From IMG/VR virus record IMGVR_UViG_3300013129_001023, positions 1 to 27,398 of that record: DNA of 27,398 nt. One strand, given 5' to 3'. Below the pieces are notes generated by a model. That model did no database searches, was not told where the DNA came from, and was given only the letters and a program-made list of their open reading frames with translations. The position numbers and the translations under genes are program-made. The DNA is from a virus. This document shows, one piece after another, positions 3,101-23,446 of this stretch (positions within the stretch are counted from its first letter, which is position 1; every line of letters starts with the position of its first letter).

Positions 3101-4512
3101 GTGCCGGGGTTCATGTTCACCGAGACAGCTCTCGCATTTCACTGTCTCCGCTCACTGACGGAGACGTTTTGCAGATGTCCGCCGGGGAGATCAAGGAGCC
3201 GACCCTTGTTCGTGCCAAGGATCTGCGGCCGGAAACAGGAGGACTCTTCGATCCCGTCACTACCGGAGGCTTGTCCGGACAGAAGTGGTCGCACATCACA
3301 CTGGCCGAGCCGATTGTGCATCCCGTCTTCCGGGACCCTGTAAGGCGGCTTCTCGGGATGAACGGTCCCCAACTGGATAAGGCCATCGCCGACAAGGGCG
3401 GTGCTTGGATACAGGGGGAACTGAAGAAGATCGATCTCGACAAGAAAGAGAAAGAACTTCTTGAGACTATGAGGGGCAAGAAAGCCGACCAGCTCGACAA
3501 CCAGCTCAAGCAGGTAAAGTACATACGTGCTCTCAAGGCCCAGAAGCTCACCCCGGACAAGGCATACGTGATATCGCATGTTCCGGTAATCCCCCCGGCT
3601 TATCGTCCGGTTCTTCCGGGACGTGGCGGGTCTGAGCTGATGTACGCCGATGTCAATCCCCTGTACCGGGATCTGGTTTACGTGAACAACCAGTTCAAGG
3701 AAATCAAGGAGTCAGGTGCCGTGCCTGACGAAGAGAAAAACCTCCGTCCGGTTCTTCATGATGCGGTGGGCGCGGTATTCGGTACCGGTGATCCCATTAC
3801 AACCAAATCACAGGCGAGAGGGCACAAGGGGTTTCTGACGTACATTGCGGGGGTGTCCAGCCCGAAGTACGGATACTTCCAGTCCAAGCTCATGAAACGT
3901 ACGCAAGACGTGGCGGGCCGCGGGACGATCGTCCCAGACCTGACCCTCGGGATGGACGAGGTCGGTATCCCGGATGACATGCTTTGGACTATGTGGGAGA
4001 AGTTCGTCATCAAGAGGCTTGTCGGTCAGGGTTACAGTGCGATAGACGCCCAGAAAATGGTCAAGGACAAGCACCCGGCCGCGAAGGAAGCGCTCATGCG
4101 CGAGACGCGGGAGCGCCCGGTGATGTTGAACCGAGCACCGACACTGCACCGCTTTAACGTTATCGCGTCCTACCCTCGACCCGTTCCCGGCAAGACAATC
4201 CGCATCAATCCCTTCATGGAGAAGGCGATGAACGCCGACTATGACGGGGACACCATGCAGGTCCACTCTCCGGTTAGCATGAAGGCTGTTGATGACGCCA
4301 AGTCCATGACGCTGTCGAACCTGCTCTTCCACGACAAGTCGAAGACCAACCTACTTGTGTTCCCGGAGATGGAAGCTATCATGGGTGTGGATCATGCGAC
4401 TACCGTGGACGAGAAGAACACACCCATCAAGTTCAAGACCACGGGAGACGCGGTGAAGGCGTATCACGAGGGTAAGATCAAGCTGGGAACACGGGTGACG
4501 ATTGGCAACTGA
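154..4512 (+). CDS. DNA-directed RNA polymerase, beta subunit fused to N-terminal part of beta'
   Basis: This 1452-residue protein carries a full beta subunit followed in line by the front part of beta'. Beta landmarks in order: the N-terminal segment ending RPKPGVYARKR (about residue 125), LDPIRTPE near 391-398 (bacterial CPIETPEG), VAYMPYYGYNTNDAV near 629-643, and GDKLSGRYGNKGVVS at 775-789 with the two active-centre lysines K777 and K785. The beta C-terminal GKMEFDAL is near 926. Beta' begins near residue 1018 with RPETGGLFDP. It continues through a PVIPPAYRPVLPGRGG segment, RPVMLNRAPTLHRFN near 1321 and the catalytic NADYDGD, with Mg-binding D1362, D1364 and D1366. The four-cysteine zinc site normally after GLF is absent. 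The protein stops about 85 residues past the catalytic loop, and the gene at 5988 supplies the rest of beta'. No Shine-Dalgarno precedes the ATG. Fused rpoBC genes are known in Helicobacter and Wolbachia, and phage polymerases of the phiKZ type are also split. The family call is very secure; the role in late or virion transcription is inference. Confidence 0.96.
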   Translation: MAELTSILMSPQDRRDRIRRRVLEGLQESFPIKSRNKTVELSDLHYEQRDFSPSEQKEAILKGDTLSEVVRGTVILKDADGKVIDKTKNFTLARVPWFTTRHTLVVGGNEYSVSNMVRPKPGVYARKRSNGILEAQFNVVGGSNFNVSMDPEKGIPHLEYGSTKIPVYPILRKAGISHDQISALWGKKMADHNHTSTFKKSDQTVEKLYGKMVPEYARKKDASSDEMMKEIVTRYGLAKMDPEVTSRTLGKAYGTVTPHSILDASGKILRIFRQDAEVDDRDNLDFKSFHSVEDFFKERIKLDARDIARKAAIKAEATPEIKKIIPAGPFTRGLIQFINSSQLVSVPTQTNPLELVDSAMRVTSLGEGGISTERAIPMEARQTHVTQIGALDPIRTPESFRAGIDIRASMRAMTDERGNLHVPVYDVKSKKNTYIRAGELQSSVVAFPHQELKGTVDALVGGVVRQIPASQVRYQIPHSSVLYSPTTNLLPFLESSQGNRAIMGAKHQTQALSLIEREEPYVQVRSQTGKSFEKLMGNVINPVAPVAGTVAKIDKDFIYIRPDKIKLGATGDAALVKIPYETNFPLAAKTFLHHDIKVKAGDKVSAGQHLGDSNFTRNGTLALGKNLSVAYMPYYGYNTNDAVIISEAAAKKLTSERMYKIIIPRDPDLSFNKDKHQVYYGNNYFKEQYKNVDGEGIIKPGMTIHPGDPMIFSLRKTQLTSDDVMLGRLHKSLARPYRDSTHTWEHDHPGEVIDVVKTAKRISVTVRTKEPMMIGDKLSGRYGNKGVVSLILPDDHMVTDEAGKPIDVIMTSAGVVSRINPSQVIETAVGKVAEKTGKPILVDNFTGKNNVQWVKKLLKDNGLKDKETVTDPTTGKKIPGVFVGRQYVFKLFKSTDTNYSARGVDTYDVNQQPTKGGAQSAKAIGKMEFDALLGHNARNVLLESATIKSQKNDEFWRALQLGYPTPPAKAAFASDKFLNMLVGAGVHVHRDSSRISLSPLTDGDVLQMSAGEIKEPTLVRAKDLRPETGGLFDPVTTGGLSGQKWSHITLAEPIVHPVFRDPVRRLLGMNGPQLDKAIADKGGAWIQGELKKIDLDKKEKELLETMRGKKADQLDNQLKQVKYIRALKAQKLTPDKAYVISHVPVIPPAYRPVLPGRGGSELMYADVNPLYRDLVYVNNQFKEIKESGAVPDEEKNLRPVLHDAVGAVFGTGDPITTKSQARGHKGFLTYIAGVSSPKYGYFQSKLMKRTQDVAGRGTIVPDLTLGMDEVGIPDDMLWTMWEKFVIKRLVGQGYSAIDAQKMVKDKHPAAKEALMRETRERPVMLNRAPTLHRFNVIASYPRPVPGKTIRINPFMEKAMNADYDGDTMQVHSPVSMKAVDDAKSMTLSNLLFHDKSKTNLLVFPEMEAIMGVDHATTVDEKNTPIKFKTTGDAVKAYHEGKIKLGTRVTIGN

Positions 4513-5986
4513 AGGGACAGCTAAGATCACGTCTGGACTCGAACTCACGAAAGATGAGGTTCGCCAGTACTACGCTCGTCCCGAGGTTCAACGAAAACTC
4601 CTGCCGTATCTCCGAGGTCATGATCTTGTAGTCGGGCAATCGGCGGGGCCGAATTCCCTCATCTACAAGCGCTACATCAAGGGGGAACCTATCCGGGTCA
4701 ACTCTCCCGCGGACCTGGAGTGGTACGGGTCTCGCCGGCATACTGAGTTTCATCCTACTATCGGCACGCGTACAAATGAGCTGTGGGTGGACATCGATTC
4801 TGGTTCTTCCCGGGACCTGTCGTCTGTGAAGACCCTGGTCCCGGAAGTCGAGGATGCTCTTCGGCGAATGCCGCAGGTGAAGAACACCAACATCGCATTT
4901 TCGGGCGGAAGAGGGTTCTACGTTCGGGGTGAATTGGACAAGCAGTACTCGACACACGAGATACGCGAAAAGCTGAAAGCCGCTGTCCGTGGTCTCGCCC
5001 AGAAAAAGGAAGACGTAGTTGTTGATCGTCCTCCAGGAATCGACGAGGTTCGGCTAGACGTATCTACCTTCCACGAAAAAGGGTCGATCCGGGCCCCGCA
5101 CGCTCTCCATAGTGAAACAGGGTTCATTTCAATCCCTCTGACACGGGAACAGCTGCACGGGTTCGACCCGATGGTCGATGCGAATCCCAGGAAACTCACC
5201 ATGAAGAAGGAATTCGCCCCTGGCATTTCGATGAGTCGTGCAACTCACGACCTACCAGAACTCAAGGATAAGACGTGGACGCTGGCGGTGCAGGCACACA
5301 ATGCACGCAAGGCGGGCATGCATTGGGATCTCCGGTTGGTTGACCCGAATACGACACACGCACATTCGTGGGCGATACCGAAGTCAAAGCTTCCCAGTCC
5401 AGGAGATGCCCCTATTCTTGCGGTACGTACACCCACGCACACGGCGCAGTACGCACTGAATTACGGAGCGAAAGGTCCGAAAGCAATCCACGAAGGTTAC
5501 GGTAAGGGCATGGTGGAAATCGTCCACAAAGAGCCGGTTACCGTGCTATCCTCGCAGACGGACAAGGTGAAGTTCGAGAGAACGGTTAACGGACTACCTC
5601 AGCAGTACGTGCTGTTTCAAGCAAAAGGGTCTTCGTGGATGATCAAGAACATCACGAAACCCGCGAAGGAGGCGAGCATGACTCCCTACACCCGTGGCCG
5701 TTACGCCGCGCTCTTGAAGTTGGGTCTGGCGGATGGTGTTCAGGAGCGACCCTCTACGTTTGAAGTACCCGTACCGATCGAGGCGCATGACGATCAGATG
5801 CCCGCAGGACAGCTCGCCGCAATGATGTCGCAGATGCCAGAAGCGATGACGCATTCCGAAGCGCTGAAGACCAAGGGTGAGAATGTAGAAGGCCACCTGA
5901 ACCGGAATACGGTATGGAGCGAGCCTCACCCCATCACGAATGATATGGCGACCGGGCCGTCTCCGGTGATGCCGGGAAGATTCTAG
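4502..5986 (+). CDS. primase-polymerase (AEP) fused to LigD-type 3'-phosphoesterase
   Basis: Residues about 15-235 resemble the archaeo-eukaryotic primase/LigD polymerase fold. They show LLPYLRGH, LEWYGSRRHTEFHP, motif I WVDIDSG (metal ligands D97 and D99), motif II SGGRGFYV (134-141) and motif III RLDVSTF (D186), then an IRAPHALHSETGF stretch like that of archaeal small primases. The usual motif II histidine is Tyr140. Residues about 240-385 match the LigD phosphoesterase domain, with the H266-x-A-R269 ... H274-W-D276-L-R-L signature and H313; this domain trims 3' phosphate or ribonucleotide ends. No ligase domain is present. The last ~100 residues are unrecognised and have an internal ribosome binding site and ATG. 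The only reasonable start is TTG at 4502, behind GGTGA and overlapping the preceding gene by 11 bases; the frame is closed at 4496-4498. The gene sits between the two halves of the phage beta' subunit. A role in priming, repair or end processing of phage DNA is inferred. Confidence 0.8.
   Translation: MATEGTAKITSGLELTKDEVRQYYARPEVQRKLLPYLRGHDLVVGQSAGPNSLIYKRYIKGEPIRVNSPADLEWYGSRRHTEFHPTIGTRTNELWVDIDSGSSRDLSSVKTLVPEVEDALRRMPQVKNTNIAFSGGRGFYVRGELDKQYSTHEIREKLKAAVRGLAQKKEDVVVDRPPGIDEVRLDVSTFHEKGSIRAPHALHSETGFISIPLTREQLHGFDPMVDANPRKLTMKKEFAPGISMSRATHDLPELKDKTWTLAVQAHNARKAGMHWDLRLVDPNTTHAHSWAIPKSKLPSPGDAPILAVRTPTHTAQYALNYGAKGPKAIHEGYGKGMVEIVHKEPVTVLSSQTDKVKFERTVNGLPQQYVLFQAKGSSWMIKNITKPAKEASMTPYTRGRYAALLKLGLADGVQERPSTFEVPVPIEAHDDQMPAGQLAAMMSQMPEAMTHSEALKTKGENVEGHLNRNTVWSEPHPITNDMATGPSPVMPGRF
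5666..5680 (+). promoter_or_regulatory. internal Shine-Dalgarno and ATG inside the primase-phosphoesterase gene
   Basis: AAGGAGG (5666-5672), a 5-base spacer and an in-frame ATG (5678-5680) make a near-ideal initiation site just after the phosphoesterase domain ends. The three codons giving the signal (Lys-Glu-Ala) are ordinary, so chance is possible. The case is stronger because the peptide begun here carries the 13-residue motif seen at the N-termini of the next genes. Confidence 0.4.
5678..5986 (+). CDS. possible nested in-frame 102-residue protein
   Basis: Initiation at the internal ATG at 5678 would make a free 102-residue protein identical to the C-terminus of the primase-phosphoesterase. 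It opens with TPYTRGRYAALLKLGL at residues 2-17, a motif shared with the N-termini of the products at 7794 and 8480 at the same spacing, and then becomes Pro/Met/Gln-rich and probably disordered. If real, the phage makes both a long and a short form. Otherwise this is simply a tail on the long protein, and the Shine-Dalgarno is a coincidence of codon choice. No function is recognised. Confidence 0.3.
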   Translation: MTPYTRGRYAALLKLGLADGVQERPSTFEVPVPIEAHDDQMPAGQLAAMMSQMPEAMTHSEALKTKGENVEGHLNRNTVWSEPHPITNDMATGPSPVMPGRF

Positions 5987-5987
5987 G

Positions 5988-7790
5988 ATGTCTACGACGG
6001 ACACCTTGGGGCGACACCTGGTTAACGCGATTCTTCCGAAGGACTACCAACTGACTGGTCCTACCGGGAAGAAGATGCTGAACCAGTCCATGGCCGTGTT
6101 GGCCAAGAAGGACCCACACCTGTACGTAGACACGGTGGCTAAACTGAAAAAGGTAGGAGACCGTCTCGCTACCTTGGAAGGTTTGTCCATCGGTTTGGAC
6201 GACATCGAACCCGATTACAAAACGCGGGATTCGATCATGAAGCCTCACGCACACAGGTTCAACCAGTCAATAACCGATGACAGGAAGCGCGAGATCGTAG
6301 AAGCAGCACAGACGGATATGCTGAAGCACGTGATGGCACATCCCGGAACGTTGACACAACAAGTCCGAAGCGGCGCCAAGGGAAATCCTGTCCAGTACAT
6401 GAAGATAGTGGGTTCTCCGGTTTATGCTCGTGATGCGCACGGAAAGACCGAGCCTTGGATGATCCACCGGTCTTACGGCGAGGGCTTGAAGTCTTCCGAC
6501 TACTGGGTGGCAGGTAGCGAAGCCATCCTCGACACCATCAAATCTTCCGTCTCGGTGTCCGAGCCCGGGGAGCTCTCGAACATCCTCTCCAGCAACATGC
6601 GGAACATTATTGTGACGGAGGATGATTGCGGGACGTCAAACGGCATTCTGATGTCCGCCGATAATTCCGATGTAGTAGACCGCTTCCTGGCTCGTGACGT
6701 TGGGGGGTTCAAGCGGGGAACACTCATTACCCCCATGGTACAGAGCAAACTGAACAAGGTTCAGAGCAAGATCCTTGTCCGGTCTCCCATGACGTGTGAA
6801 GCCGGTGACGGGGTCTGCCAGAAGTGCCAGGGTCTCGACGAGAAGGGACAGATGCACACGCACGGGACCAACGTAGGTGTGCGTGCCGCGCAAGCCATGT
6901 CTGAACCCCTGACGCAGTTGGCGCTCAACGCGAAGCACGGTGTGCGTACTGCGAAGGACGACCGCGTTCAAGTTCACGGCCTTCAGGGGGTGCGGCAGAT
7001 CATTCAGACCCCGCACCAGTTCATCAACAAGGCGACGCTGGCCGAGCGGGACGGTAAGGTAACAAAGGTGGAGGCCGCCCCTCAAGGCGGGCACTTTGTC
7101 TATATAGATGATCATCAACACTATATAGTGCCTAACCTCGGGGTTACCGTTACTTCGGGACAAGTAGTCGAGAGGGGAGACGCTATCAGCCAGGGCGTAC
7201 CCAAGCCGGATGAAGTTGTGAACCACAAGGGTCTCGCGGCAGGGCGGCTTTACGTCGTAAACACGCTGAAGAACATCTACAAGGACCAAGGACAGGATCT
7301 GGATTCCCGGCACTTCGAGATTCTCGCTCGTGGTGAAATGAATCACGTGCGCATCCTCGACGACCCGAGCAACAAGTTTCTCAAGGGAGACATTGTCAGC
7401 TATAACCACCTCAGGAGTGCCTTGAAGTCCGGCGTAAAGGACTTGCCTGTAAACGACGCGCTCGGGGAGACCTTAGGAAAAGAGTACTTCCACTACTCGG
7501 CAGGGATGAGAATCACACCTCCGATGGTAAAGTTTCTCAAGGGCCAAAAAATAGACACAATTACGATTGCCCCGAGAGCCCCGACAGTACAGTTCATCAT
7601 GAAGCCGGCAACGACTGCCCCGCTTCTTGACCCGGACTGGATGGCGCGTTTGGCACACCGCGATATCAAGTCGTCGATCTTGCAAGCGGCTCATTTTGGT
7701 GAGACAACTGATGTACATGGAACGAGCCCTGTACCAGCATACGCACTCAGCAGCCCCGAATTCGGAAAGGGCCCGAAGGGTAGGTACTGA
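5988..7790 (+). CDS. DNA-directed RNA polymerase, C-terminal part of beta'
   Basis: This 600-residue protein continues beta' almost where the gene at 154 stops: it opens with TTDTLGRHLVNAILP, the counterpart of bacterial TTVGRAILWMIVP, and then has LSIGLDDI. The second beta' zinc site is intact: C214 in TEDDCGT, then C270, C277 and C280 in the C-x6-C-x2-C pattern. The trigger-loop region reads EPLTQLALNAKHG (306-318) and keeps the catalytic-type histidine (H317), but Met-Arg of the bacterial MRTFH is Leu-Asn. The bridge helix before C214 is strongly diverged and lacks GARKG and YLTRRLV. The C-terminus has ILQAAHFGETTDV, the match of bacterial AASFQETTRV. The ATG follows the stop of the primase-phosphoesterase by one base, so translation is probably coupled. 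The polymerase needs both gene products. The split lies slightly upstream of the cyanobacterial rpoC1/rpoC2 break. Confidence 0.95.
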   Translation: MSTTDTLGRHLVNAILPKDYQLTGPTGKKMLNQSMAVLAKKDPHLYVDTVAKLKKVGDRLATLEGLSIGLDDIEPDYKTRDSIMKPHAHRFNQSITDDRKREIVEAAQTDMLKHVMAHPGTLTQQVRSGAKGNPVQYMKIVGSPVYARDAHGKTEPWMIHRSYGEGLKSSDYWVAGSEAILDTIKSSVSVSEPGELSNILSSNMRNIIVTEDDCGTSNGILMSADNSDVVDRFLARDVGGFKRGTLITPMVQSKLNKVQSKILVRSPMTCEAGDGVCQKCQGLDEKGQMHTHGTNVGVRAAQAMSEPLTQLALNAKHGVRTAKDDRVQVHGLQGVRQIIQTPHQFINKATLAERDGKVTKVEAAPQGGHFVYIDDHQHYIVPNLGVTVTSGQVVERGDAISQGVPKPDEVVNHKGLAAGRLYVVNTLKNIYKDQGQDLDSRHFEILARGEMNHVRILDDPSNKFLKGDIVSYNHLRSALKSGVKDLPVNDALGETLGKEYFHYSAGMRITPPMVKFLKGQKIDTITIAPRAPTVQFIMKPATTAPLLDPDWMARLAHRDIKSSILQAAHFGETTDVHGTSPVPAYALSSPEFGKGPKGRY

Positions 7791-7793
7791 GAG

Positions 7794-8381
7794 ATGAGCG
7801 CGACGTACGAGCGTGGATACCGACAGGCCCTCTCAACTCTGGGCATGGCGAAGTTCGCGAACCCGGTGGCCAGATGGGTAGCCCAGAAGGCCCCGGGCTT
7901 TCTGACGAATGTAAGGCATAACATTATCGGCCAACCTATCCGGGCGTACAAGCAGCTCCGTCAGGGAACGCTGTTCGGCAAGGGCGGGCTTGTCCGCTCT
8001 GGTCTCTCGGCTCCGACTTGGGGTAGCAAGCTTCTGCTCTACGGAATCCCGGCGGGCATGGCGGCATATACCGCAGCGGGGGATGATCCGGACAAGTACG
8101 AGCAGATCGGCGGGTTGGCTACGTCCACGCTTGCCGGCGGAGCGGCCTTCGGTCCTCTCGGAATGCTCGGGGCTATGGCCGCAATGCCCCTGGCTTCAAG
8201 AGCTGGGCGGCATCTCGGTGGCGGGGTACGCCATCTGGTAACCGGACAGCCGTCTCAGGCAGAAGGTCCGGCACCGAAACCGATACACGAATTGCCGCCC
8301 CCGTTCGAAGGTCCCAGACCTTATCCGGCAGTCCAGTACGGACAGATGGCGGGGCTGTTGGGGAGTGGAACCGGTGCTTGA
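7794..8381 (+). CDS. unrecognised Gly/Ala-rich protein with hydrophobic segments
   Basis: This 195-residue protein is not recognised. It starts 3 bases after the beta' stop, so it is probably in the same message. The N-terminus carries Y-E-R-G-Y-R-Q-A-L-S-T-L-G (residues 5-17), the motif shared with neighbouring genes. After a basic segment (about 20-65) comes a hydrophobic, glycine-rich region near 80-145 (IPAGMAAYTAAG, LAGGAAFGPLGMLGAMAAM) that could pack as helical hairpins or insert in a membrane. The C-terminus is Pro-rich (LPPPFEGPRPYP). A virion-internal or ejected protein is one possible reading, based only on composition and location. Confidence 0.75.
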   Translation: MSATYERGYRQALSTLGMAKFANPVARWVAQKAPGFLTNVRHNIIGQPIRAYKQLRQGTLFGKGGLVRSGLSAPTWGSKLLLYGIPAGMAAYTAAGDDPDKYEQIGGLATSTLAGGAAFGPLGMLGAMAAMPLASRAGRHLGGGVRHLVTGQPSQAEGPAPKPIHELPPPFEGPRPYPAVQYGQMAGLLGSGTGA

Positions 8382-8479: not shown

Positions 8480-9085
8480 ATGAACCGCGTGCAACTTCTG
8501 AAACTGGCATACGCCCGTGGGGCGTTCCTTGCTCTCCAAGAGGCAGGCTACCACGAGAAGGTGGCCGAGGACCTCGCACTCAAGATCGCAAACCGGGACG
8601 CCCTTGACGTTCTGGAGGACGTGGGCATCGGTGCCGGCGTTGGCGGTCTCGGCGGCGCGGCTCTCGGCGCAGGTGCAGGTGCCCTCACGGGCCGTTTCGC
8701 ACGGAGCATCCCTGGCGAAGCTCGGCTCCTGAGCATGTCCGGAGCCCAGAACCCGACCCTGCGTCGGGCACTCGGCGCAACCGGCTACGTCCCCGAGGCG
8801 CTGTCGTCTGACATGATCCACGCCATGAACAACCCCGAATTCGCGTCGCAGGCCGCGATGGCCGGACAGATGGGTTCGGAGGGTGCGGCGATGGCCGATG
8901 CGCGGATCACGGATGCGCTGCGCAAGTCTCAGTACAACGGCCCCGGTGGCATTACCGGAGGCTCGCGCATGAGCACTAGGGATCCGTTCAGCATGCCGGT
9001 TCGTGGGGCAATGCAGTACGGTGCCGCAGGTCTCGGAGCGGGCGCACTCGGTGGCGGGCTCGTCGGCGGTCTGGCGGGCGAGTAA
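8480..9085 (+). CDS. unrecognised glycine-zipper protein, likely abundant virion component
   Basis: The ATG at 8480 was chosen over the upstream in-frame TTG at 8444 because GAGGAG lies just ahead of it. The 201-residue product begins with a Lys/Ala helix holding YARGAFLALQEAG (11-23), the motif shared with the gene before it. It has two glycine-zipper stretches, GAGVGGLGGAALGAGAGAL (about 54-72) and a C-terminal GAAGLGAGALGGGLVGGLAG, typical of tightly packed or membrane-inserting helices. Codons strongly favour C or G in the third position, as in the capsid and sheath genes here, which hints at high expression. Family unknown; an ejection or internal virion protein is only a guess. Confidence 0.75.
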   Translation: MNRVQLLKLAYARGAFLALQEAGYHEKVAEDLALKIANRDALDVLEDVGIGAGVGGLGGAALGAGAGALTGRFARSIPGEARLLSMSGAQNPTLRRALGATGYVPEALSSDMIHAMNNPEFASQAAMAGQMGSEGAAMADARITDALRKSQYNGPGGITGGSRMSTRDPFSMPVRGAMQYGAAGLGAGALGGGLVGGLAGE

Positions 9086-13523: not shown

Positions 13524-14342
13524 ATGTGGACCCGGAAAGAATACGAGAACGCGGCTGAAGAGATTTCCCTGAAGTACGCAGAGAGCAAGGGTGCGACGAG
13601 CATCAACAAGCTCGCTGAGGACATGTCCCGGACTGCTTCTCTCAATCCCGACGGTATCCGCACGATGGTCCGTCTCGCCAACGTGTCTGTATTCGAGAAG
13701 CTCTTCTCCGCGAAGACAGGGGAAGACCGCATGATCGAGTACGAGCCGGGAGACGCCGAAGTCGTTATCAGCAACATCTTCTCGGCGGAGAAGAAGGCGT
13801 GCATCGAACATCTCACGAACGCGGATTCCTATGACCGCTACCAGGACTACTACGGAGACCTGAATCCGATGACGAAGGTCGCCAATTCGGACGAGCACTT
13901 CCTCGGGAAGAACGAGAACAAGACCCCTACCCGCCAGGAGGCTAAGTTCGTCGTCAGCAAGGCTCGTGAGAAGCTGGCCGAGGAAAAGGTCATGACGGAA
14001 CATCGCTGGCTCTCCGCCATGGAGAAGCTGGCTGAGAACGCCAAGCTTTTTGCTCAGACCCCGGCACAGAAGGCGAGGTTCGAGAAGCTTGCCGTTTCTG
14101 CGTTGGGGGAGCAGGTCATCCCTGAGCTGAGAGCACTCAACAAGTTTCTTGGTCATGGGGTGGACGCTCCTCTTTTCGGGGGAGAGAAGCTGGCGGACGT
14201 TCTCGACCGTTTTTCAACGAGTCCTTCAAGCCAGGATCGTTTCATGCTAGATTTCATTGAGGGCGCTAAGCATGCGCGTGTCGAGATACGGAACCTGACG
14301 CACGGAGTCGACGTTCTCGACGGAAAGTTGGCGAAGCTGTAA
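13524..14342 (+). CDS. unrecognised helical protein
   Basis: The 272-residue product starts 17 bases after the preceding stop, behind GAGGAAAGG. It is mostly amphipathic helix with many Lys-x-Ala steps (NKLAED, EKLAEE, EKLAENAKLF, EKLAVS, EKLADV), and the sequence LNPDGIRTMVRLANVSVFEK near 50-69 looks like a small globular helical unit. No catalytic motif, signal peptide or membrane segment is seen. The stop TAA shares its last base with the next ATG, so translation is coupled. Its place between the 874-residue protein and the protease makes a virion or head-assembly role likely; this is context only. Confidence 0.75.
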   Translation: MWTRKEYENAAEEISLKYAESKGATSINKLAEDMSRTASLNPDGIRTMVRLANVSVFEKLFSAKTGEDRMIEYEPGDAEVVISNIFSAEKKACIEHLTNADSYDRYQDYYGDLNPMTKVANSDEHFLGKNENKTPTRQEAKFVVSKAREKLAEEKVMTEHRWLSAMEKLAENAKLFAQTPAQKARFEKLAVSALGEQVIPELRALNKFLGHGVDAPLFGGEKLADVLDRFSTSPSSQDRFMLDFIEGAKHARVEIRNLTHGVDVLDGKLAKL

Positions 14343-15028
14343 TGAAGGGCCTGCTTTCAATCCCGGTCAAGGCTGGTCGTTTTGCGGCCAAGCATCCTGT
14401 TCTGACGGCCGGGACAGCAGGAGTCGGTGTTGCCGGGTACGGGACCTTGCAACACGCCAAAGCGGAAGAGCAGGCAATCAGAGACAACTACGCGGGAGCT
14501 CCCATGGGAAAATACGTCTTCGCGGAACTGGAACGGTTCGAAGATCGCAAGGGCTATCTCGACGAGAAGCTCGCTTTCGAGAAGGTAGCAGTCGTCTTCG
14601 GAGGTGAGAGAGACGAAAAAGGCGGTATCGCCTGGGCTCCTACGATCGGGGCAGACCTGTCTGGAGGTTTCGGCAAAGCCGTAGGACAGCAGACTGTCGG
14701 CGGGATCGCCTCCCTTCTCGGAAGCGTGGCGGATAGCCTCCGGGACAAGATTGTTCTCGCCCCCAAGCGCGAGGCCATCTTCACCCACCTCGTTCAGCAT
14801 GATCCTGTGATCTCCCAGTACGAGGCATCCCAACCGGGGTCTGCTGCGCGTGCGTACATGTCCATGAGCCGGTTCGCTCCTGAACTCAGCACGGACCCCA
14901 ATGTAGTGACGTCCTTCCTGCGCGAGACTGCACAGACGGGCGGGACGCTCAATCACGTGACCATCAAGCAGCTTGCTGAAGCGGAAGCTGCTATCCAGGC
15001 CGCTACGGGAAGAGGAGGACGGAGATGA
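14342..15028 (+). CDS. unrecognised protein with N-terminal hydrophobic Gly-rich segment
   Basis: The 228-residue product overlaps its upstream neighbour by one base and the next gene by four (ATGA). Residues about 18-36 (KHPVLTAGTAGVGVAGYGT) form a hydrophobic glycine-rich helix that could cross a membrane or act as a signal anchor, preceded by basic residues (KAGRFAAK). A second glycine-rich stretch lies near 105-130 (DLSGGFGKAVGQQTVGGIAS). The rest is helical, with a basic Gly/Arg C-terminus. Similar segments occur in the C-terminal part of the protease gene product. Not recognised; an internal head or ejection protein is possible. Confidence 0.75.
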   Translation: MKGLLSIPVKAGRFAAKHPVLTAGTAGVGVAGYGTLQHAKAEEQAIRDNYAGAPMGKYVFAELERFEDRKGYLDEKLAFEKVAVVFGGERDEKGGIAWAPTIGADLSGGFGKAVGQQTVGGIASLLGSVADSLRDKIVLAPKREAIFTHLVQHDPVISQYEASQPGSAARAYMSMSRFAPELSTDPNVVTSFLRETAQTGGTLNHVTIKQLAEAEAAIQAATGRGGRR

Positions 15029-15241: not shown

Positions 15242-15646
15242 ATGGCGCTTTTCGCACACGAAGTCTCACAGGTTCTCCATAGCATGGGGACTCTGGAGGA
15301 ATTCGCCGTTAAGACGGCGGAAGTAAAAGACGTGGCGCTCATCGGTGCGAATAACGCCAATGCCGCCATCGCTCTTTACGGCGTAATGGCCAAAGAGGCG
15401 TCTTTCCTTCCTGACGGCTCCAACCCATACCGGATGTGCCGGATGGTATCGAAGTTCGCCCAGGATCTGGGGAAGCCTACTCTCGACGCTGTCACGCAAC
15501 TGAAGATCGCCGCGGCAGTCGCAGTGGACGACGCGTTCAATACCGTGCTCTCTTCCGGCACCGCCGATCCGGAAAAGGCGAAAGTCGCAGAACTGCAATC
15601 GTATGGGCGGGAATACATCGCGGAGCTTTTGCGCGAGGTCATCTAG
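15242..15646 (+). CDS. unrecognised helical protein (134 residues)
   Basis: The ATG at 15242 sits behind GAGGTGAT, which overlaps the previous stop. The 134-residue product appears all-helical, Ala-rich and soluble, with KTAEVKDVALIGANNANAAI near 24-43 and SKFAQDLGKPTLDAVTQLK near 70-88. No known motif is recognised. Its stop TAG shares a base with the GTG start of the prohead protease gene, so the two are translated together, which points to a head-assembly role. That role is contextual inference only. Confidence 0.72.
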   Translation: MALFAHEVSQVLHSMGTLEEFAVKTAEVKDVALIGANNANAAIALYGVMAKEASFLPDGSNPYRMCRMVSKFAQDLGKPTLDAVTQLKIAAAVAVDDAFNTVLSSGTADPEKAKVAELQSYGREYIAELLREVI

Positions 15647-17700
15647 TGGACAAGATCATTCATCTTGAGCCTTACTTCCCGAAGACCGGCGAGCTCACGG
15701 TGCAGCCCGTTCTTCTCTGGGCCAATGGGCGTCCCTGTTACGAAGAGATCACCAAGTACGCCAGTGTAGGGCATGACTTCTTCAAGACCGTGACGCCGGT
15801 GCCAGGACACTCGTTCGTCTACGTTCTCGCGGTCAGCGGATGGGAGTTCTACGGGGAAAACCGTAACGGAGACAGTTTTCCTGAGTTTCCTTTCAAGGAG
15901 ACCGAGAACCCGCCGTGGATTGCTGCGGACGAGACGTTAGTACACTACTACAAAACGTTCGAACAGTTCGGGATGAACTACCGCCACCACGTGAACAAGG
16001 ACCCGGCGAAGGCGGTAGGGAAAGTCGTCAAGGCTTTCTGGAATCCCGCGATGCACCGGGTCGAAATTCTGATTGATCTCGATAATGCGCGGGCTCCGGA
16101 CTTGGCTGACCGCATTGCGGCCGGCGAGTACCCGCCAGTAAGCATGGGGACGCGGGTTCCATACGACGTTTGCAGCATTTGCGGAAACCGGGCGCCAACA
16201 CGAGCCCAGTACTGCAACCACCTGCGATTCCAGATGCGGGACGTCATCAATGGGATGAAGGTCTCCGCACTGAATCCGCGTCCCAAGTTCTTTGATATCT
16301 CCTGGGTGTTCCGCCCGGCTGATCCGATTGCCTTCATGATGAAGAAGGTGGCCGAAGAACGCCCGTACGAAATCACCGGAGCCGAAGCGGGTGAGTACAT
16401 CAGCCGTCTCAATGACTTCAAGGCTGCTGCGCATAAGATGGCGGTTATCGACAAGCTCGTTCAGGGGTTGCCGGTTGACTCTCGTACTTCAGGGATGGAC
16501 CCGACTGAGTTGCAGAACATGCAGAACTGCCGTCCGGTAGCTATGCAGCTCAGCCGGTCATCCGTGGATCTTCCTGATGACATCATGAGCGGCATGTCTT
16601 CCTTGTCTATGCCGCAGATCTTCTCCACCATGGCGGCAAGGGGCATGAGTCCGACAACGCCCGAGGTTGTGAAGATCACAGTCATCAAGGTCTACAAAAC
16701 CAGCCCTGCGCCCGGGGTTCTCGACAAGTCCGTAGCCCTACAAAACGGAATTTTCGGGCTTCTGGAAGACCATCCCCAGATCATCCAGCAGCTCATGGAC
16801 TCGGGTGCCCTCTCTTTGGGTCCACAGCATGTGCATCAAGGACTCTTCGATGCTCTCGGTCCTCTCATGGAGAAGCGTTCAGGTATCGGGGAATACCTGA
16901 AGAGACGAGTCGTTCACGAGAGGTGGCGAGACGAGCCGGCGTACACCACTCCGCTGTCTATGACCGATCCGGTTACCGGACAGCAGTACGGCACTACTCG
17001 GGGAGCGGCCATCTTGGCACATGATGAGATTGCCAAACGCAATCTCTACAAGATTCTCGGGGGGACAGCGCTTCTCGGAGGAGCGTACAAGGTCATAACC
17101 CATGGGTTGGGTCCTAGCCGCGGGTGGATGAAACCGCTGGTGGCCGGAGGACTCGGTGCGCTGGGTTACACCATGCGTCCGACCATGGGACCCCACTACA
17201 TGACTGACCAGGGAGTGCCGATCCCCACCAATACTGAACTGGCGAAAGTGGGCTCTCTCGGAGGATACGCCCTCCCGTTCGTCGGTACTTTGGGGTTGAT
17301 GGCACTACTGGGACATGATTACAGTTCCCGAATGCAGGATGGAATCCCTATCGGTCACCCCGCCCTCCCGCTGTCCCGACGCATTCTCGATCAGGTCGAG
17401 CAGGCGTCGTACGAACACCCGTTCATCGCTGCGGGAGTAGGGACACTCGGGTTGAAAGGCTTGGGCGCTAGTCGCTTGGGTCAGTGGGCCAATAAGAGAG
17501 TCGCCAACCCGCTCATGGATATCGGGAGCGACATCGCAGGAAAGTCCAAAGAAGTTCTGCGCGGCGTATCGAGCGGAGGAGTTAAGGTTTCCACGTGGCT
17601 GGCTCATGAACTTCCGGTCCCCGCGGATACCGTAACGCTTCCTGCGGTGGATCTTGACAAGCTCGCTGAGCACATTGGGTGGTTGATCGTGGAGGGTTAG
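15646..17700 (+). CDS. prohead maturation protease with long C-terminal extension
   Basis: The 684-residue product starts at GTG 15646, which overlaps the preceding stop (TAGTG); an open stretch upstream of it is out of frame with the previous gene and was discarded. Residues about 45-245 match large-phage prohead proteases: GENRNGDSFPE, then YRHHVNKDPAKAVGKV with likely catalytic H115, then PPVSMGTRVPYD with likely nucleophile S166, and NPRPKFFDISWVFRPADP. A zinc-finger-like insert holds C176, C179, C190 and H192. The third catalytic residue is not certain. Residues about 280-684 are not protease-like. They include Gly-rich hydrophobic helices (LYKILGGTALLGGAYKV, KPLVAGGLGALGYTM, GYALPFVGTLGLMALLG) and may be a separate internal-protein domain. 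The enzyme would cleave scaffold and head proteins during capsid maturation. Immediately downstream lie the scaffold-like and capsid genes. Confidence 0.85.
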   Translation: MDKIIHLEPYFPKTGELTVQPVLLWANGRPCYEEITKYASVGHDFFKTVTPVPGHSFVYVLAVSGWEFYGENRNGDSFPEFPFKETENPPWIAADETLVHYYKTFEQFGMNYRHHVNKDPAKAVGKVVKAFWNPAMHRVEILIDLDNARAPDLADRIAAGEYPPVSMGTRVPYDVCSICGNRAPTRAQYCNHLRFQMRDVINGMKVSALNPRPKFFDISWVFRPADPIAFMMKKVAEERPYEITGAEAGEYISRLNDFKAAAHKMAVIDKLVQGLPVDSRTSGMDPTELQNMQNCRPVAMQLSRSSVDLPDDIMSGMSSLSMPQIFSTMAARGMSPTTPEVVKITVIKVYKTSPAPGVLDKSVALQNGIFGLLEDHPQIIQQLMDSGALSLGPQHVHQGLFDALGPLMEKRSGIGEYLKRRVVHERWRDEPAYTTPLSMTDPVTGQQYGTTRGAAILAHDEIAKRNLYKILGGTALLGGAYKVITHGLGPSRGWMKPLVAGGLGALGYTMRPTMGPHYMTDQGVPIPTNTELAKVGSLGGYALPFVGTLGLMALLGHDYSSRMQDGIPIGHPALPLSRRILDQVEQASYEHPFIAAGVGTLGLKGLGASRLGQWANKRVANPLMDIGSDIAGKSKEVLRGVSSGGVKVSTWLAHELPVPADTVTLPAVDLDKLAEHIGWLIVEG

Positions 17701-17707
17701 TTCCCTC

Positions 17708-17736
17708 TTGTGGATTCGAACAAAGCGTCCTAATAT
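17708..17736 (+). promoter_or_regulatory. promoter before the scaffold-capsid genes
   Basis: TTGTGG (17708-17713), a 17-base spacer and TAATAT (17731-17736) make a plausible promoter in the 67-base gap after the protease gene, which would start transcription near 17743. An AGAGG ribosome site follows (about 17756-17760). It would allow extra expression of the scaffold, decoration and capsid genes. Sequence match only. Confidence 0.45.
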
Positions 17737-17767: not shown

Positions 17768-18445
17768 ATGCTCGTGGACAAAATTCTGGATGAAATCGAG
17801 GCCCAAGAGAAGACGGCGGCACAGGCAGCTCCGGACCCTCGGCAGGTTGCAGAGAGCCAACTGTCGAGCGCTCTTGGCGAAACCCTGAGCAAGGTTGCTT
17901 CCCAGGCGGCGCCGGCGGCGGGCGACCCGGTTCGTGACCTGTTCAAGATGGCCGAAGATGTGGCCAACGCCGAGAAGCAGGGAGAAGTCCAACAGGCAGC
18001 TCTCTGCGGCCGGGCGTTCGCACATGCGGCGATCAACGAGTTCGCGGCATACGACAATGCGGCCAAGGTTGCGGCAGCGCAGTCGTACCAGCCGCCGACG
18101 TACGAGGAGGCCGTGAAGGTCGCCGCGTCCGATGACGAACTCGTGAAGGCCGCGGAGCTTGGCTACCAGGATGCGGCTATCCGCATCCAGCAGGAGGCCG
18201 CGCTCCAGGGTCAGAACAAGGAAGCCCAGATGGAAGTGAAGCTGGCTTCGGTCAACATCGACGACGACGTCATGGAGAAGATGGCCCAGGTGGGCTACAC
18301 CCAGACGCACGAGAAGATCGCGGCCGAGCAGTTCAACCAAGGCTACGACGCCGCGATGGGTGAGGTCCGTGACCGTGCGGCCGAAGAGTTCATCAAGGGC
18401 GCACAGGAAGTCGACGCGCTGATGCAGATGTCGCAACAGGGCTGA
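17768..18445 (+). CDS. probable scaffolding protein
   Basis: The ATG at 17768 follows AGAGG; an upstream in-frame TTG at 17708 lies in the promoter and was not used. The 225-residue product is rich in Ala, Glu, Gln and Lys and should be almost entirely helical, with no Trp and one Cys, a composition typical of phage scaffolding cores. It sits in the usual scaffold slot, after the prohead protease and before the major capsid protein. Repeated Lys-x-Ala helices (EKTAAQ, SKVASQ, FKMAED, EKMAQV, EKIAAE) run through it. Codon use is strongly C/G-ending, consistent with high expression. The role rests on composition and position; no family signature is visible. Confidence 0.6.
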   Translation: MLVDKILDEIEAQEKTAAQAAPDPRQVAESQLSSALGETLSKVASQAAPAAGDPVRDLFKMAEDVANAEKQGEVQQAALCGRAFAHAAINEFAAYDNAAKVAAAQSYQPPTYEEAVKVAASDDELVKAAELGYQDAAIRIQQEAALQGQNKEAQMEVKLASVNIDDDVMEKMAQVGYTQTHEKIAAEQFNQGYDAAMGEVRDRAAEEFIKGAQEVDALMQMSQQG

Positions 18446-19299: not shown

Positions 19300-19314
19300 G
19301 GAGGAAAACAAATG
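19300..19314 (+). promoter_or_regulatory. strong ribosome binding site
   Basis: GGAGGAAAACAAATG, the same 15 bases as at 9099-9113, sets the start of the decoration-like gene at 19312. Confidence 0.8.
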
Positions 19315-19867: not shown

Positions 19868-20785
19868 ATGAATTACCAGCAAGAGTCTCCGGAAGTGACT
19901 GCCCGTTTCGTGAACTCGAACTTCGTTCGCAAGATCGAAGAAGGGCGTGTCAAGGAAGCCGAAGTCGAGAGTTCCGCGTTCATCCGCGAGAAGCTCCGTC
20001 AAGAGGCCGCGGTTCGTGAGATCATCGTTCCGGTGGGCATCACCGAGGACGAGATCGACCGCGACGAGAACACGGATCAGCCGAAGAAGATCATCGACAA
20101 GGAGCCCGACTCCGCGGCGACCTTCTGCCAGTTCCAGGGCACCGGCCACCGGACCTGGTTCTACGGCCAGCGCTATTCGATCTTCTTCGGGAAGGTCGAG
20201 TCGCAGCGCTTCACCAAGTCGAAGTTCGAGCTGATGACGTACACCAGCGACATCCGCAAGATCCTGTCCGACAACTCCGTGAAGGACATGGCGGACGAAG
20301 AGGATCGCGCGTTCCGGAACCTGGTGGACGACATCATCGCCCTGAACCCGGCTGTGCAGCGGACTCCTGGCCCGTTCCAGAGCTCGACCTTCAAGAGCGC
20401 CATGCAGAGCCTCCTGAGGCGTCGGCGTCCGGTCGGCAAGATGCTCATGACGAAGAGCCGCTACATGGATGCTCTGGACCTGCCGTCGACCACGGTTGGC
20501 CACGACATCGCAAAGCGGCACTTCGACGAGGGCATCGAGTCCTCGCAGAAGCTGTGGGGTCTCCCGGTCGTGACCACGATCAAGGCCGACGTCTACGACG
20601 ACACGAAGGCGTACGTCTTCGCGCCGCAGGCGCCGAACAACTTCCTCGGGAACTTCTACCTCCTCCAGGACGCCACCCTGTTCATCAAGCAGGAAGCGGA
20701 CATGATCGAGTTCTGGTCCTACGAGGCTCTCGGGCTCGGCATCGGCAACGCGCTCTCGATCCAAGAGATCCAGTTCGGGCCGTAA
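19868..20785 (+). CDS. major capsid protein (HK97-like fold)
   Basis: The ATG at 19868 follows GAGGAGGCAG; the frame open upstream belongs to the wrong frame of the decoration gene. The 305-residue product has a charged helical N-terminus (about 20-55), FYGQRYSIFFGKVESQRF near 97-115, and a C-terminal half with the typical capsid pattern: MLMTKSRYMDALDL, LWGLPVVTTIKADVY, YVFAPQ, NFLGNFYLLQDATLFIKQEA and EALGLGIGNALSIQEIQFG. This resembles HK97-type major capsid proteins, in which the last segments form the A domain and P-domain strands. It probably assembles on the upstream scaffold and is matured by the protease at 15646. A terminator hairpin follows its stop at once. Confidence 0.85.
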   Translation: MNYQQESPEVTARFVNSNFVRKIEEGRVKEAEVESSAFIREKLRQEAAVREIIVPVGITEDEIDRDENTDQPKKIIDKEPDSAATFCQFQGTGHRTWFYGQRYSIFFGKVESQRFTKSKFELMTYTSDIRKILSDNSVKDMADEEDRAFRNLVDDIIALNPAVQRTPGPFQSSTFKSAMQSLLRRRRPVGKMLMTKSRYMDALDLPSTTVGHDIAKRHFDEGIESSQKLWGLPVVTTIKADVYDDTKAYVFAPQAPNNFLGNFYLLQDATLFIKQEADMIEFWSYEALGLGIGNALSIQEIQFGP

Positions 20786-22112: not shown

Positions 22113-22580
22113 ATGCCCGTTGTTATCCCAACCAACGCTACTCCCATTACCGTCCAGGATGTGCGGTGGTTTCTGCGGGATCTCCCGTCGAAGAATCCTC
22201 TTCTTCTTGAAGAGATAGAGTTCAGCGACGACGACCTGAATCGGGCACTTCAGTTTGGTGCTGACAAGTACAATGCGATGACGCCGCAGACCAATGTTCC
22301 GGCCAACCTGATAAATCGCTGGGTCCTGATGGTGTGTGCGTGCTCTATTCTTCTTCGTTCAGAAGGAATACGGCAGCTGCGCAACCAGCTCATTACTCAG
22401 GATGGGAATATTGCGCCGGTAGGTCTCGACGAAAAGCAGGCACTCTACATGGCGTGGGCGGACAACCTGCAAGCTGAATTCGACGGGCTCGCACGACAGA
22501 TCAAAACACAGAACAACATGGAAGCTTGTTACGACGGTCTCAGCTCAGGCTACCGCTACATCGGTAGGTGGACTGCGTAA
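22113..22580 (+). CDS. probable head-tail connector (adaptor) protein
   Basis: The 155-residue product is mainly helical and has the layout seen in phage adaptor/connector proteins: VQDVRWFLRDLPSKNPLL near 14-31, EIEFSDDDLNRALQFGADKY near 34-53 and a central hydrophobic helix RWVLMVCACSILL. QLRNQLITQDGN and a long amphipathic C-terminal helix follow. Its position, two genes before the tail terminator-like gene and after the capsid cluster, supports a head completion role. The stop TAA shares its last A with the next ATG. The assignment is by pattern and synteny. Confidence 0.55.
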   Translation: MPVVIPTNATPITVQDVRWFLRDLPSKNPLLLEEIEFSDDDLNRALQFGADKYNAMTPQTNVPANLINRWVLMVCACSILLRSEGIRQLRNQLITQDGNIAPVGLDEKQALYMAWADNLQAEFDGLARQIKTQNNMEACYDGLSSGYRYIGRWTA

Positions 22581-23446
22581 TGGCTACAGCACCTCTCTCC
22601 ACGGTTTACGGGAAGCAGGAATCCCCCCTCAAGGGGAGTAAAGCCTTCCTGGAAATCACGCGGTGCATTCCCGTGTGGCCGAGGAGAGTCTACATACAGT
22701 GGATCATCCGGAATCCCGTATCGGTCCCTCACTACCTTTTCAAGGTGGAGCGTTCAGGAAGCCATCACGGTCCGTGGGAGCTTCTCGTAGAGGATCTTGA
22801 GGACGAATACTTCTACGTGGATAACAACATCCAGTCCCCGCATAACGATTCGTCCATGGGGATGATGTCCCTGGAGCGCAAGCCATACTACCGCGTTACC
22901 GCGGAGCCGGGAGACTTGGAAGTAATCGGGGACACCTGGCCGGCGTTGGATCATCGCCGCCGGGGAATCCACTACAAGCTCACTCGCGACGCACTGCGCT
23001 ATTTCAAGGTGGGGGTGGGCACGGAGGTCGCCATTTTCAAGAGGCGTCGGTGGGGTGAAAAATGTCCGATATGTCTGTCCTCTACTGGCCAGTCGACGCG
23101 TGCCCATTGTTCGACGTGCTTTGGAACGGGATTCGTTGGGGGGTACTGGAACCCTGTATACACATACGCCCAGCGCCGACCGTCACCTATTCAAATCCAA
23201 ACGGCGCCTCAGGGGGATGTTGAAAGCAACGTCATCCAGATCTTGATGCCGCACATCCCTATCGTGGACATGCAAGACGTCCTGGTGTTCTTGCGGGATG
23301 ACACGCGATACGAGATCAAGTCGGTAACTCCGACGCTCATCCACTCGCTGATAGTCCATCAGGAATTGGTGGTCTCCGAACTGGCAAGGTCTTCGAGAGA
23401 ATACGGGCTCAAAGCCGATCACTGGCACGAGCCTCCGTGGTTTTAA
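22580..23446 (+). CDS. probable neck protein with four-cysteine zinc motif
   Basis: The start at 22580 overlaps the preceding stop by one base; an in-frame upstream codon at 22568 would only extend into that gene. The 288-residue product has an N-terminal fibronectin-like strand pattern (VYIQWIIRNP, HYLFKVERSG, about 38-65). It also has a four-Cys cluster, C162-P-I-C165 ... C177-S-T-C180-F-G-T-G, that should bind zinc, and ends in beta strands. A C-P-x-C ... C-x-x-C-x-G-T-G-F segment of this kind is familiar from neck proteins of large contractile-tail phages. A head-tail junction role fits the neighbours; this is moderate inference. Confidence 0.6.
   Translation: MATAPLSTVYGKQESPLKGSKAFLEITRCIPVWPRRVYIQWIIRNPVSVPHYLFKVERSGSHHGPWELLVEDLEDEYFYVDNNIQSPHNDSSMGMMSLERKPYYRVTAEPGDLEVIGDTWPALDHRRRGIHYKLTRDALRYFKVGVGTEVAIFKRRRWGEKCPICLSSTGQSTRAHCSTCFGTGFVGGYWNPVYTYAQRRPSPIQIQTAPQGDVESNVIQILMPHIPIVDMQDVLVFLRDDTRYEIKSVTPTLIHSLIVHQELVVSELARSSREYGLKADHWHEPPWF

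Follow-up and report, generated by a model that had tools for sequence, protein, structure and literature searches.

Why would a phage prohead protease be made as the front part of a 684-residue protein, and at which sites would it cut? The question is raised by an open reading frame (ORF) on the plus strand of IMG/VR virus record IMGVR_UViG_3300013129_001023, whose 27,398 bases form the window analysed here. A sequence-only reading of this DNA had described a prohead protease with a zinc-finger-like insert, fused to a long hydrophobic, Gly-rich extension. The ORF (15646-17700) is present as described, with H115, S166, C176, C179, C190 and H192 at the residues named, and K3, which is the same in 13 aligned near sequences, agrees with its GTG start. 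Most probably it codes for a self-excising precursor of a large tailed phage's prohead protease, with K-x-A specificity. What the sequences and models show is a fold match, conservation, and the enrichment and placement of the motif.

Relatives of the gene were collected by IMG/VR and GTDB scans, which yielded 19, 70 and 4 partly overlapping loci (referred to below by L numbers). The nearest annotated relatives among those found come from Salmonella phage Arash (gp222), Vibrio phages D69, D181 and D148, Bacillus phage G (gp19), Rhodococcus phage E3 (gp77, 'prohead protease') and mycobacteriophages such as Myrna (gp97).

Identity as a prohead protease is borne out by profile matches, conservation and modelling. 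One of the PHROG matches of the 684-residue protein is to phrog_18299, head maturation protease (5e-12); nothing in Pfam or NCBIfam matched it. In an alignment of the window protein with 50 chosen relatives, H115 and S166 are identical in 51/51 sequences, and position 217 holds D in 46 of them and E in the other 5. By analogy, H115 and S166 would be catalytic and D217 is probably the third catalytic residue. An AlphaFold2 model, built from 56 sequences and confident over residues ~51-230, consists of a protease domain and a separate, mostly helical region. Such a prediction had been proposed as a check on the earlier reading, and among the homologues examined none was found whose whole length forms one protease fold. 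The best structural match of the model is varicella-zoster virus (VZV) protease (1vzv; Z 10.8, root-mean-square deviation 2.7, 115 residues aligned), followed by T4 gp21 (5jbl; Z 10.2, 2.8, 128 residues aligned, 17% identity). Together these two matches span residues ~49-236; unrelated MlaD rows reach Z 7.3. Foldseek with the full model returned no match at E<=0.001, and a sequence search of the PDB with the family profile returned helical matches of chance level only. In a sequence alignment S166 falls on a Ser of the T4 gp21 GVSS motif. The protease part had been thought to end at about residue 245. A separate protease domain is confirmed, but its boundary lies nearer 236, where the fold match ends and the predicted local distance difference test (pLDDT) score is below 50 (residues 234-240).

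The zinc-like site noticed beside the nucleophile is supported by the same alignment, in which C176, C179 and C190 are identical in 51/51 sequences and H192 in 44/51. Several of the seven exceptions to H192 carry a Cys-rich variant, for example YCGPEMC or YCDC. The knuckle, with two ligand pairs (C-x2-C and C-x-H) at conserved spacing, is probably a structural zinc site. A search for relatives without the extension, also suggested earlier, was successful: the knuckle occurs in proteins that are protease only or nearly so, namely phage G gp19 (300 residues), Erwinia phage Yoloswag gp142 (257) and the protease of Xanthomonas phage PhiXhv-15 (268). Thus the zinc-like site is old in this branch and independent of the tail, which is an addition. 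Inteins often sit at conserved sites, and some protease relatives contain them, with Hint and LAGLIDADG domains. One stands directly behind the catalytic His (H115) in L020:3513-6758 and another in front of the first zinc Cys (C176) in L012:3-2594; Hint domains start near the latter place in L067 and L056 as well.

The tail after residue 236 comprises ~448 residues and is distinct from the protease fold, as had been supposed: relatives at 52-82% identity keep it in full to the last residues, and a separate model of the tail consists mostly of helices (mean pLDDT 71.9). Its description as hydrophobic, Gly-rich helices fits the last 273 residues, where the Gly share is 14.3%, but not the rest of the tail (7.4% in residues 237-411, compared with 5.5% in residues 1-236). 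Since a single segment, 538-556, has a 19-residue mean Kyte-Doolittle value above 1.2 (1.56), transmembrane helices are not clear-cut. Of 28 distant relatives, six were matched at E<=0.001 by a profile of residues 237-411, in protease genes only, and none by a profile of residues 412-684. The middle domain is thus the older one, and the Gly-rich end belongs to the near clade and its nearer kin. In BFVD the tail model found nothing at E<=0.001 (best E 0.055), and in VIA-align no row above Z 6.0; these two comparisons therefore assign no fold to the tail, from which newness of the fold does not follow.

Two other readings of the tail were considered and set aside. If it were encoded by a gene of its own elsewhere, such a gene might be expected among the 9583 stop-to-stop frames of at least 60 residues from all relative loci, yet at E<=0.001 both tail halves match protease genes only. 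The five frames listed there as others are copies of the same protease genes in L001, L008, L009, L013 and L014; two further frames match more weakly, a frame of L053 at E 0.0037 and a frame of L097 at E 0.014. The tail is also not taken for the scaffold, a separate K-x-A-rich acidic protein being encoded after the protease gene. Extensions vary in the wider family. In Arash gp222 and Vibrio D69 VPHD69_0270 the tail measures ~265-281 residues after the PAD motif, with a short hydrophobic segment near the end. Myrna gp97 (L025:5767-9402), annotated as a tape measure protein, begins with the zinc-knuckle protease and continues for ~1000 residues.

Recurrent K-x-A was first spotted by reading the neighbour proteins, after which all residue pairs at five spacings (1200 pairs, written below with a dot for each intervening residue) were scanned without bias, with expectations taken from shuffles. 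In the window's head module (13 stretches, 3407 residues) K.A is the top pair, with 68 occurrences against 23.9 expected (z 9.4; next pair z 4.7), and it is not among the top pairs in 10 control proteins of the window (4577 residues; polymerase, LigD-like, decoration and tail). Besides the genes at 17768 and 13524 (Table 1), those at 10166 (11 against 4.2), 15242 (5 against 1.4) and 18954 (6 against 0.9) show an excess; the genes at 7794, 12787 and 14342 show none. In the head proteins of the window, where K.A is the enriched pair, neither A.E nor S.E is among the eight highest pairs listed for the same spacing.

The same signal is found in other phages. K.A ranks 1 of 1200 in nine head stretches of Arash (45 against 20.6) and 811 in 20 of its tail and enzyme proteins. 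Among the 74 tested of 251 numbered Arash products, gp220, gp225, gp223, gp242 and gp222 are the most enriched, and four of these lie in the head cluster. In Vibrio D69 the pair again ranks 1 (49 against 20.3), and it does so in 31 of 39 relative loci chosen as mostly non-duplicate; it ranks 2 in L064, L070 and L085, 6 in L073 and 7 in L094. Phages with known signals served as controls. The T4 cleavage signal is I/L-x-E, and I.E and L.E take ranks 1 and 2 in T4 gp67, gp68, gp21 and gp22. The signals A-x-E of SPN3US and S/A/G-x-E of phiKZ are given in PMC5694885; in phiKZ S.E ranks 3 or 2, and A.E and G.E are little raised. K.A ranks 809 in T5 and 927 in tail genes of SPO1, whose stretch consists mainly of tail and replication genes and is thus a tail control only.

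The placement of the motif is equally regular. In alignment A2, K37 is kept in 55 of 56 rows and A39 in 54, both together in 53, with a variable residue 38 (3.2 bits) between them; residue 40 is S in 44 rows and A in 9. Such a site would end an N-terminal propeptide, a feature beyond what the sequence-only reading had proposed. In terms of distance, K-x-A occurs 18-60 residues before the NxNxD motif in 64 of 65 anchored sequences, where 14.3 were expected (66 were given; L041 was not anchored). Two loci, L091 and L094, have K-R-G-S at this site where others have K-x-A-S, so that Gly may be able to replace Ala at the end of the motif. At the junction with the tail, 63 of the 65 sequences that could be anchored (67 given, window included; L078 and L080 not anchored) carry a K-x-A no more than 30 residues from the PAD motif, where 11.7 were expected. 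Its middle residue is V in 48, A in 9, Q in 2 and C, T, E or S once each, and its offset shifts from 6 to 19. The motif thus marks both ends of the protease, where pLDDT is below 50 (residues 1-38 and 234-240), the pattern expected of paired self-release sites, and the earlier proposal that the protease releases itself from its tail gains a probable site. The capsid protein agrees with this picture: K-x-A is present in the propeptide of 60/60 distinct sequences (14.5 expected), 6 residues before a conserved arm in 57 of them and with ten different middle residues, and the capsid bodies hold 34 where 75.3 were expected.

Could K-x-A instead have nothing to do with cleavage and recur in head-core proteins as a helix motif or as a binding motif, for example for the scaffold? 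Many of the proteins concerned are acidic, Ala-rich and probably helical, and EK-x-A can recur in such sequences. EK, KV and K..E are somewhat raised in the window, and K..S in D69, although these pairs would fit an extended E-K-x-A-S site too. A helix or binding role is difficult to reconcile, however, with the lack of enrichment of R.A, K.S, K.G and K..A in the window, Arash or D69, and of E.A, with the fixed spacing in the capsid protein, and with the freedom of residue 38 between two conserved neighbours. Moreover, Ser follows 30 of the 94 sites of Arash and D69 (4.2-fold over composition), and the known cleavage motif of T4 yields the same kind of signal. Of those 94 sites, 29 are preceded by Glu (4.0-fold); of the window's 68 sites, 15 are followed by Glu (3.2-fold) and 7 by Ser. 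We regard a role other than cleavage as improbable.

A number of observations nonetheless weigh against a K-x-A-cutting protease of the T4 type. With regard to fold, H115 is offset from the T4 gp21 His in the sequence alignment, and comparing profiles with T4 gp21 gave no significant result. With regard to enrichment, the Arash head proteins gp213, gp219, gp221 and gp224 have no clear excess, and K.A is weak in phage G, where it ranks 2 (z 3.1) in gp15-21 and 243 in the gp14 portal protein and gp22-28. The pair ranks 10 in Myrna (weak) and 626 in E3 (not enriched), and around the protease it is weak or not enriched in L069 (rank 39), L080 (41) and L077 (920). The known SPN3US motif A.E reaches just rank 11, so that the pair scan is an imperfect instrument. 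With regard to placement, three A2 rows lack the K37/A39 pair, the annotated gene of E3 contains no N-terminal K-x-A in the stretch searched (its K-x-A lies upstream of the annotated start), L066 and Myrna have no junction K-x-A, and conservation of KKVA at the junction could partly reflect the last strand of the fold (residues 230-234). Finally, the sequences share ancestry, and the counts are not independent events. L066 is a diverged relative, yet K.A ranks first in its locus. In the actinobacteriophage branch R-x-A reaches z 2.8 in E3 and [KR]-x-A z 4.7 in Myrna (head genes of L024 and L025), which is suggestive only; an excess of these pairs, and not of K.A alone, suggests a relaxed first motif residue there.

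Density of the motif in the tail core differs between clades, and with it the probable fate of the tail. K-x-A is in excess in 22 distant relatives (98 against 29.7 expected) and 19 middle-clade sequences (90 against 40.8), but not in 19 near-clade sequences including the window (29 against 38.7), the window having none between residues 267 and 671. The tail may thus be a sacrificial targeting propeptide only, degraded in the prohead without leaving a stable internal protein, an option that is compatible with a self-excising precursor and has in our view slightly less than an even chance. Apart from the two excesses, it is favoured by SPN3US gp245, which removes its own 64-residue C-terminal propeptide, inferred by its authors to target the enzyme into the prohead (PMC5694885, PMC10052503). 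By analogy, the tail described here likely has the role of targeting the enzyme into the prohead, and in most of the family it looks sacrificial by its motif content. Loss of the whole tail fits less well with the low count in the near clade and with the conservation of the tail's end there; the window tail could survive as a ~405-residue fragment.

A surviving fragment leads to a second and more tentative possibility, that the tail, once released, remains inside the head as an internal protein and leaves it by ejection, perhaps to act at the host membrane. The scarcity of K-x-A in near-clade tail cores would suit such a protein, and Arash gp222 is annotated 'structural protein' as deposited, although no Arash paper was found from which the basis could be traced. 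Gly-rich uncharged stretches in the head-module neighbours at 7794, 8480 and 14342 point the same way, but they are circumstantial only because uncharged Gly-containing stretches also occur in the protein at 19312 and the tail-module proteins at 22568 and 24214. Hydrophobicity of the tail is modest even in its best segment, the Arash gp222 tail is shorter and contains six K-x-A, and the tail model found no fold match. Of the idea that the protease frees an internal protein from itself, the release survives with a probable site; the internal protein would be a possibility for the near clade, the K-x-A-dense tails of distant relatives looking sacrificial. The three head-module neighbours (7794-8381, 8480-9085 and 14342-15028) are small proteins whose long uncharged Gly/Ala-rich stretches are like the protease tail, and the first two start with a motif of the type Y-x2-G-x3-A-L.

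It is very improbable that the protease stays joined to its tail, uncut at 236, with the tail anchoring the enzyme on the inner shell. KKVA adjoins the final strand of the fold and could be conserved for structural reasons, and the junction motif is missing from two of the 65 anchored sequences. Against this stand the variation of the junction K-x-A in middle residue and position, the low pLDDT at 234-240, and the C-terminal self-cleavage reported for the SPN3US and phiKZ proteases.

For zinc binding, cleavage, targeting and tail fate we infer the following course for the self-excising precursor. It would consist of an N-terminal propeptide (1-39), a protease with a probable zinc knuckle (40-236), a helical middle (237-411) and a Gly-rich end (412-684), and the tail probably carries the enzyme into the prohead. 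Once inside, the protease would cut after K-x-A, freeing itself at A39/S40 and A236/E237, and would use the same motif on the capsid protein, the scaffold-like protein and other core proteins. In the near clade, with few sites in the tail core, the tail would be released almost intact, whereas the protease of distant relatives would chop it up.

A bolder combination, which we hold to be rather unlikely, would be that a widespread zinc-bearing branch of prohead proteases cuts after K-x-A and that, in addition, the near-clade gene also supplies a second product, a Gly-rich, membrane-active protein that is internal or ejected and is released by the enzyme's own cut, one precursor thus giving two virion proteins. 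In titles and abstract beginnings of the open-licence literature we found no K-x-A motif or zinc site for any prohead protease, and the main text of a jumbo-phage overview (PMC7824862) does not contain the term 'prohead protease'. If the K-x-A assignment is right, a cleavage code could be read from sequence for many uncultured and cultured large phages (Arash, Vibrio D69, perhaps phage G), which would predict mature capsid protein ends and processed head proteins where most head genes are unannotated. It would also add a specificity class (Lys at P3, Ala at P1) beside the Glu-cutting T4 and phiKZ enzymes, near the Ala/Ser cutting of herpesviruses. The pair scan could be tried on other phages, having recovered the motif of T4, that of phiKZ more weakly and that of SPN3US at the rank given above.

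The neighbourhood is that of a head module. On the 5' side of the protease gene are RNA polymerase beta/beta' genes enclosing a LigD-like gene, followed by head-module genes; on the 3' side the scaffold-like gene and some small genes precede the capsid gene, and tail genes come after it. The protease gene is thus near the scaffold-like and capsid genes, and gene order in Arash is similar. The capsid assignment relies on a weak PHROG match to 'major head protein' (E 0.025) and on the homologue Arash gp226, annotated as major capsid protein. Of the RNA polymerase genes, within 154-7790, one ORF holds the beta domains and the start of beta', up to the NADYDGD motif, and a second the rest of beta', and the gene between them encodes LigD primase-polymerase and phosphoesterase-like domains. 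In the tail module, the protein at 22568-23446 contains CPIC...HCSTC, a possible zinc ribbon with a weak Pfam NOB1 ribbon match (E 0.097).

Table 1. Features of the protease precursor gene and its probable substrates in the window.
Feature	Position	Strand	Basis or remark
Whole gene, 684-residue protease precursor	15646..17700	+	GTG start
Predicted N-terminal propeptide, residues 1-39, ending K37-Y38-A39 / S40	15646..15762	+	A2 columns; pLDDT <50 for 1-38
Protease domain, herpes/T4 gp21 fold, residues 40-236	15763..16353	+	fold match and conservation
Cys3His knuckle C176-x2-C179-x10-C190-x-H192	16171..16221	+	conservation
Predicted self-release site K234-V-A236	16345..16353	+	K234 and A236 jointly in 50/56 rows of A2; pLDDT <50 at 234-240
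Middle helical domain, residues 237-411	16354..16878	+	models; profile matches in 6/28 distant relatives at E<=0.001
Further K-x-A sites K259-A-A and K264-M-A	16420..16443	+	at least one of the two retained in near-clade relatives
Gly-rich, partly hydrophobic C-terminal part, residues 412-684	16879..17697	+	no K-x-A until 672
K672-L-A674 near the C-terminus	17659..17667	+	motif position
Head-module protein, probable substrate	13524..14342	+	11 K-x-A, 2.7 expected
Scaffold-like protein by composition, probable substrate	17768..18445	+	225 residues from ATG, ORF opens at 17708; 11 K-x-A, 2.8 expected
Major capsid protein, 305 residues	19868..20785	+	propeptide predicted to end K29-E-A31 (19952-19960)

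Among known systems, T4 gp21, SPN3US gp245 and phiKZ gp175 (MEROPS S80) share with the window protease the position in a head module and a short motif with fixed first and third residues. T4 gp21 belongs to the same fold class, and the SPN3US and phiKZ enzymes are reported to remove their own C-terminus, as predicted here. The motifs differ, K-x-A (predicted) in the window standing against A/S/G-x-E in SPN3US and phiKZ and I/L-x-E in T4. Unlike the window protease, T4 gp21 has no zinc knuckle or Cys-rich stretch, and SPN3US gp245 has a C-terminal propeptide of 64 residues compared with a tail of ~448 in the window protein, for which an N-terminal cut is predicted as well. Herpesvirus assemblin, the UL26 protease with a scaffold tail (family S21), cuts between Ala and Ser, as is predicted for the A39/S40 site of the window protein. 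It is represented among the structural matches by the best one, the VZV protease, and likewise is a protease with a long C-terminal extension. By contrast, the third catalytic residue of the window protease appears to be Asp/Glu, in FFDIS, and the window tail matched no scaffold in the searches made, the scaffold-like protein being encoded by a separate gene. Yoloswag gp142 and the PhiXhv-15 protease, which from size and annotation probably belong to phrog_18299, have the C-x2-C ... C-x-H knuckle and the core motifs in common with the window protein, but no tail and no K-x-A at the protein ends; the N-terminal 90 residues of Yoloswag's capsid protein contain none either. Arash gp222 and Vibrio D69 VPHD69_0270, like the window protein, combine the zinc knuckle, K-x-A at both ends of the protease and a K-x-A-rich head module, with tails shorter than that of the window.

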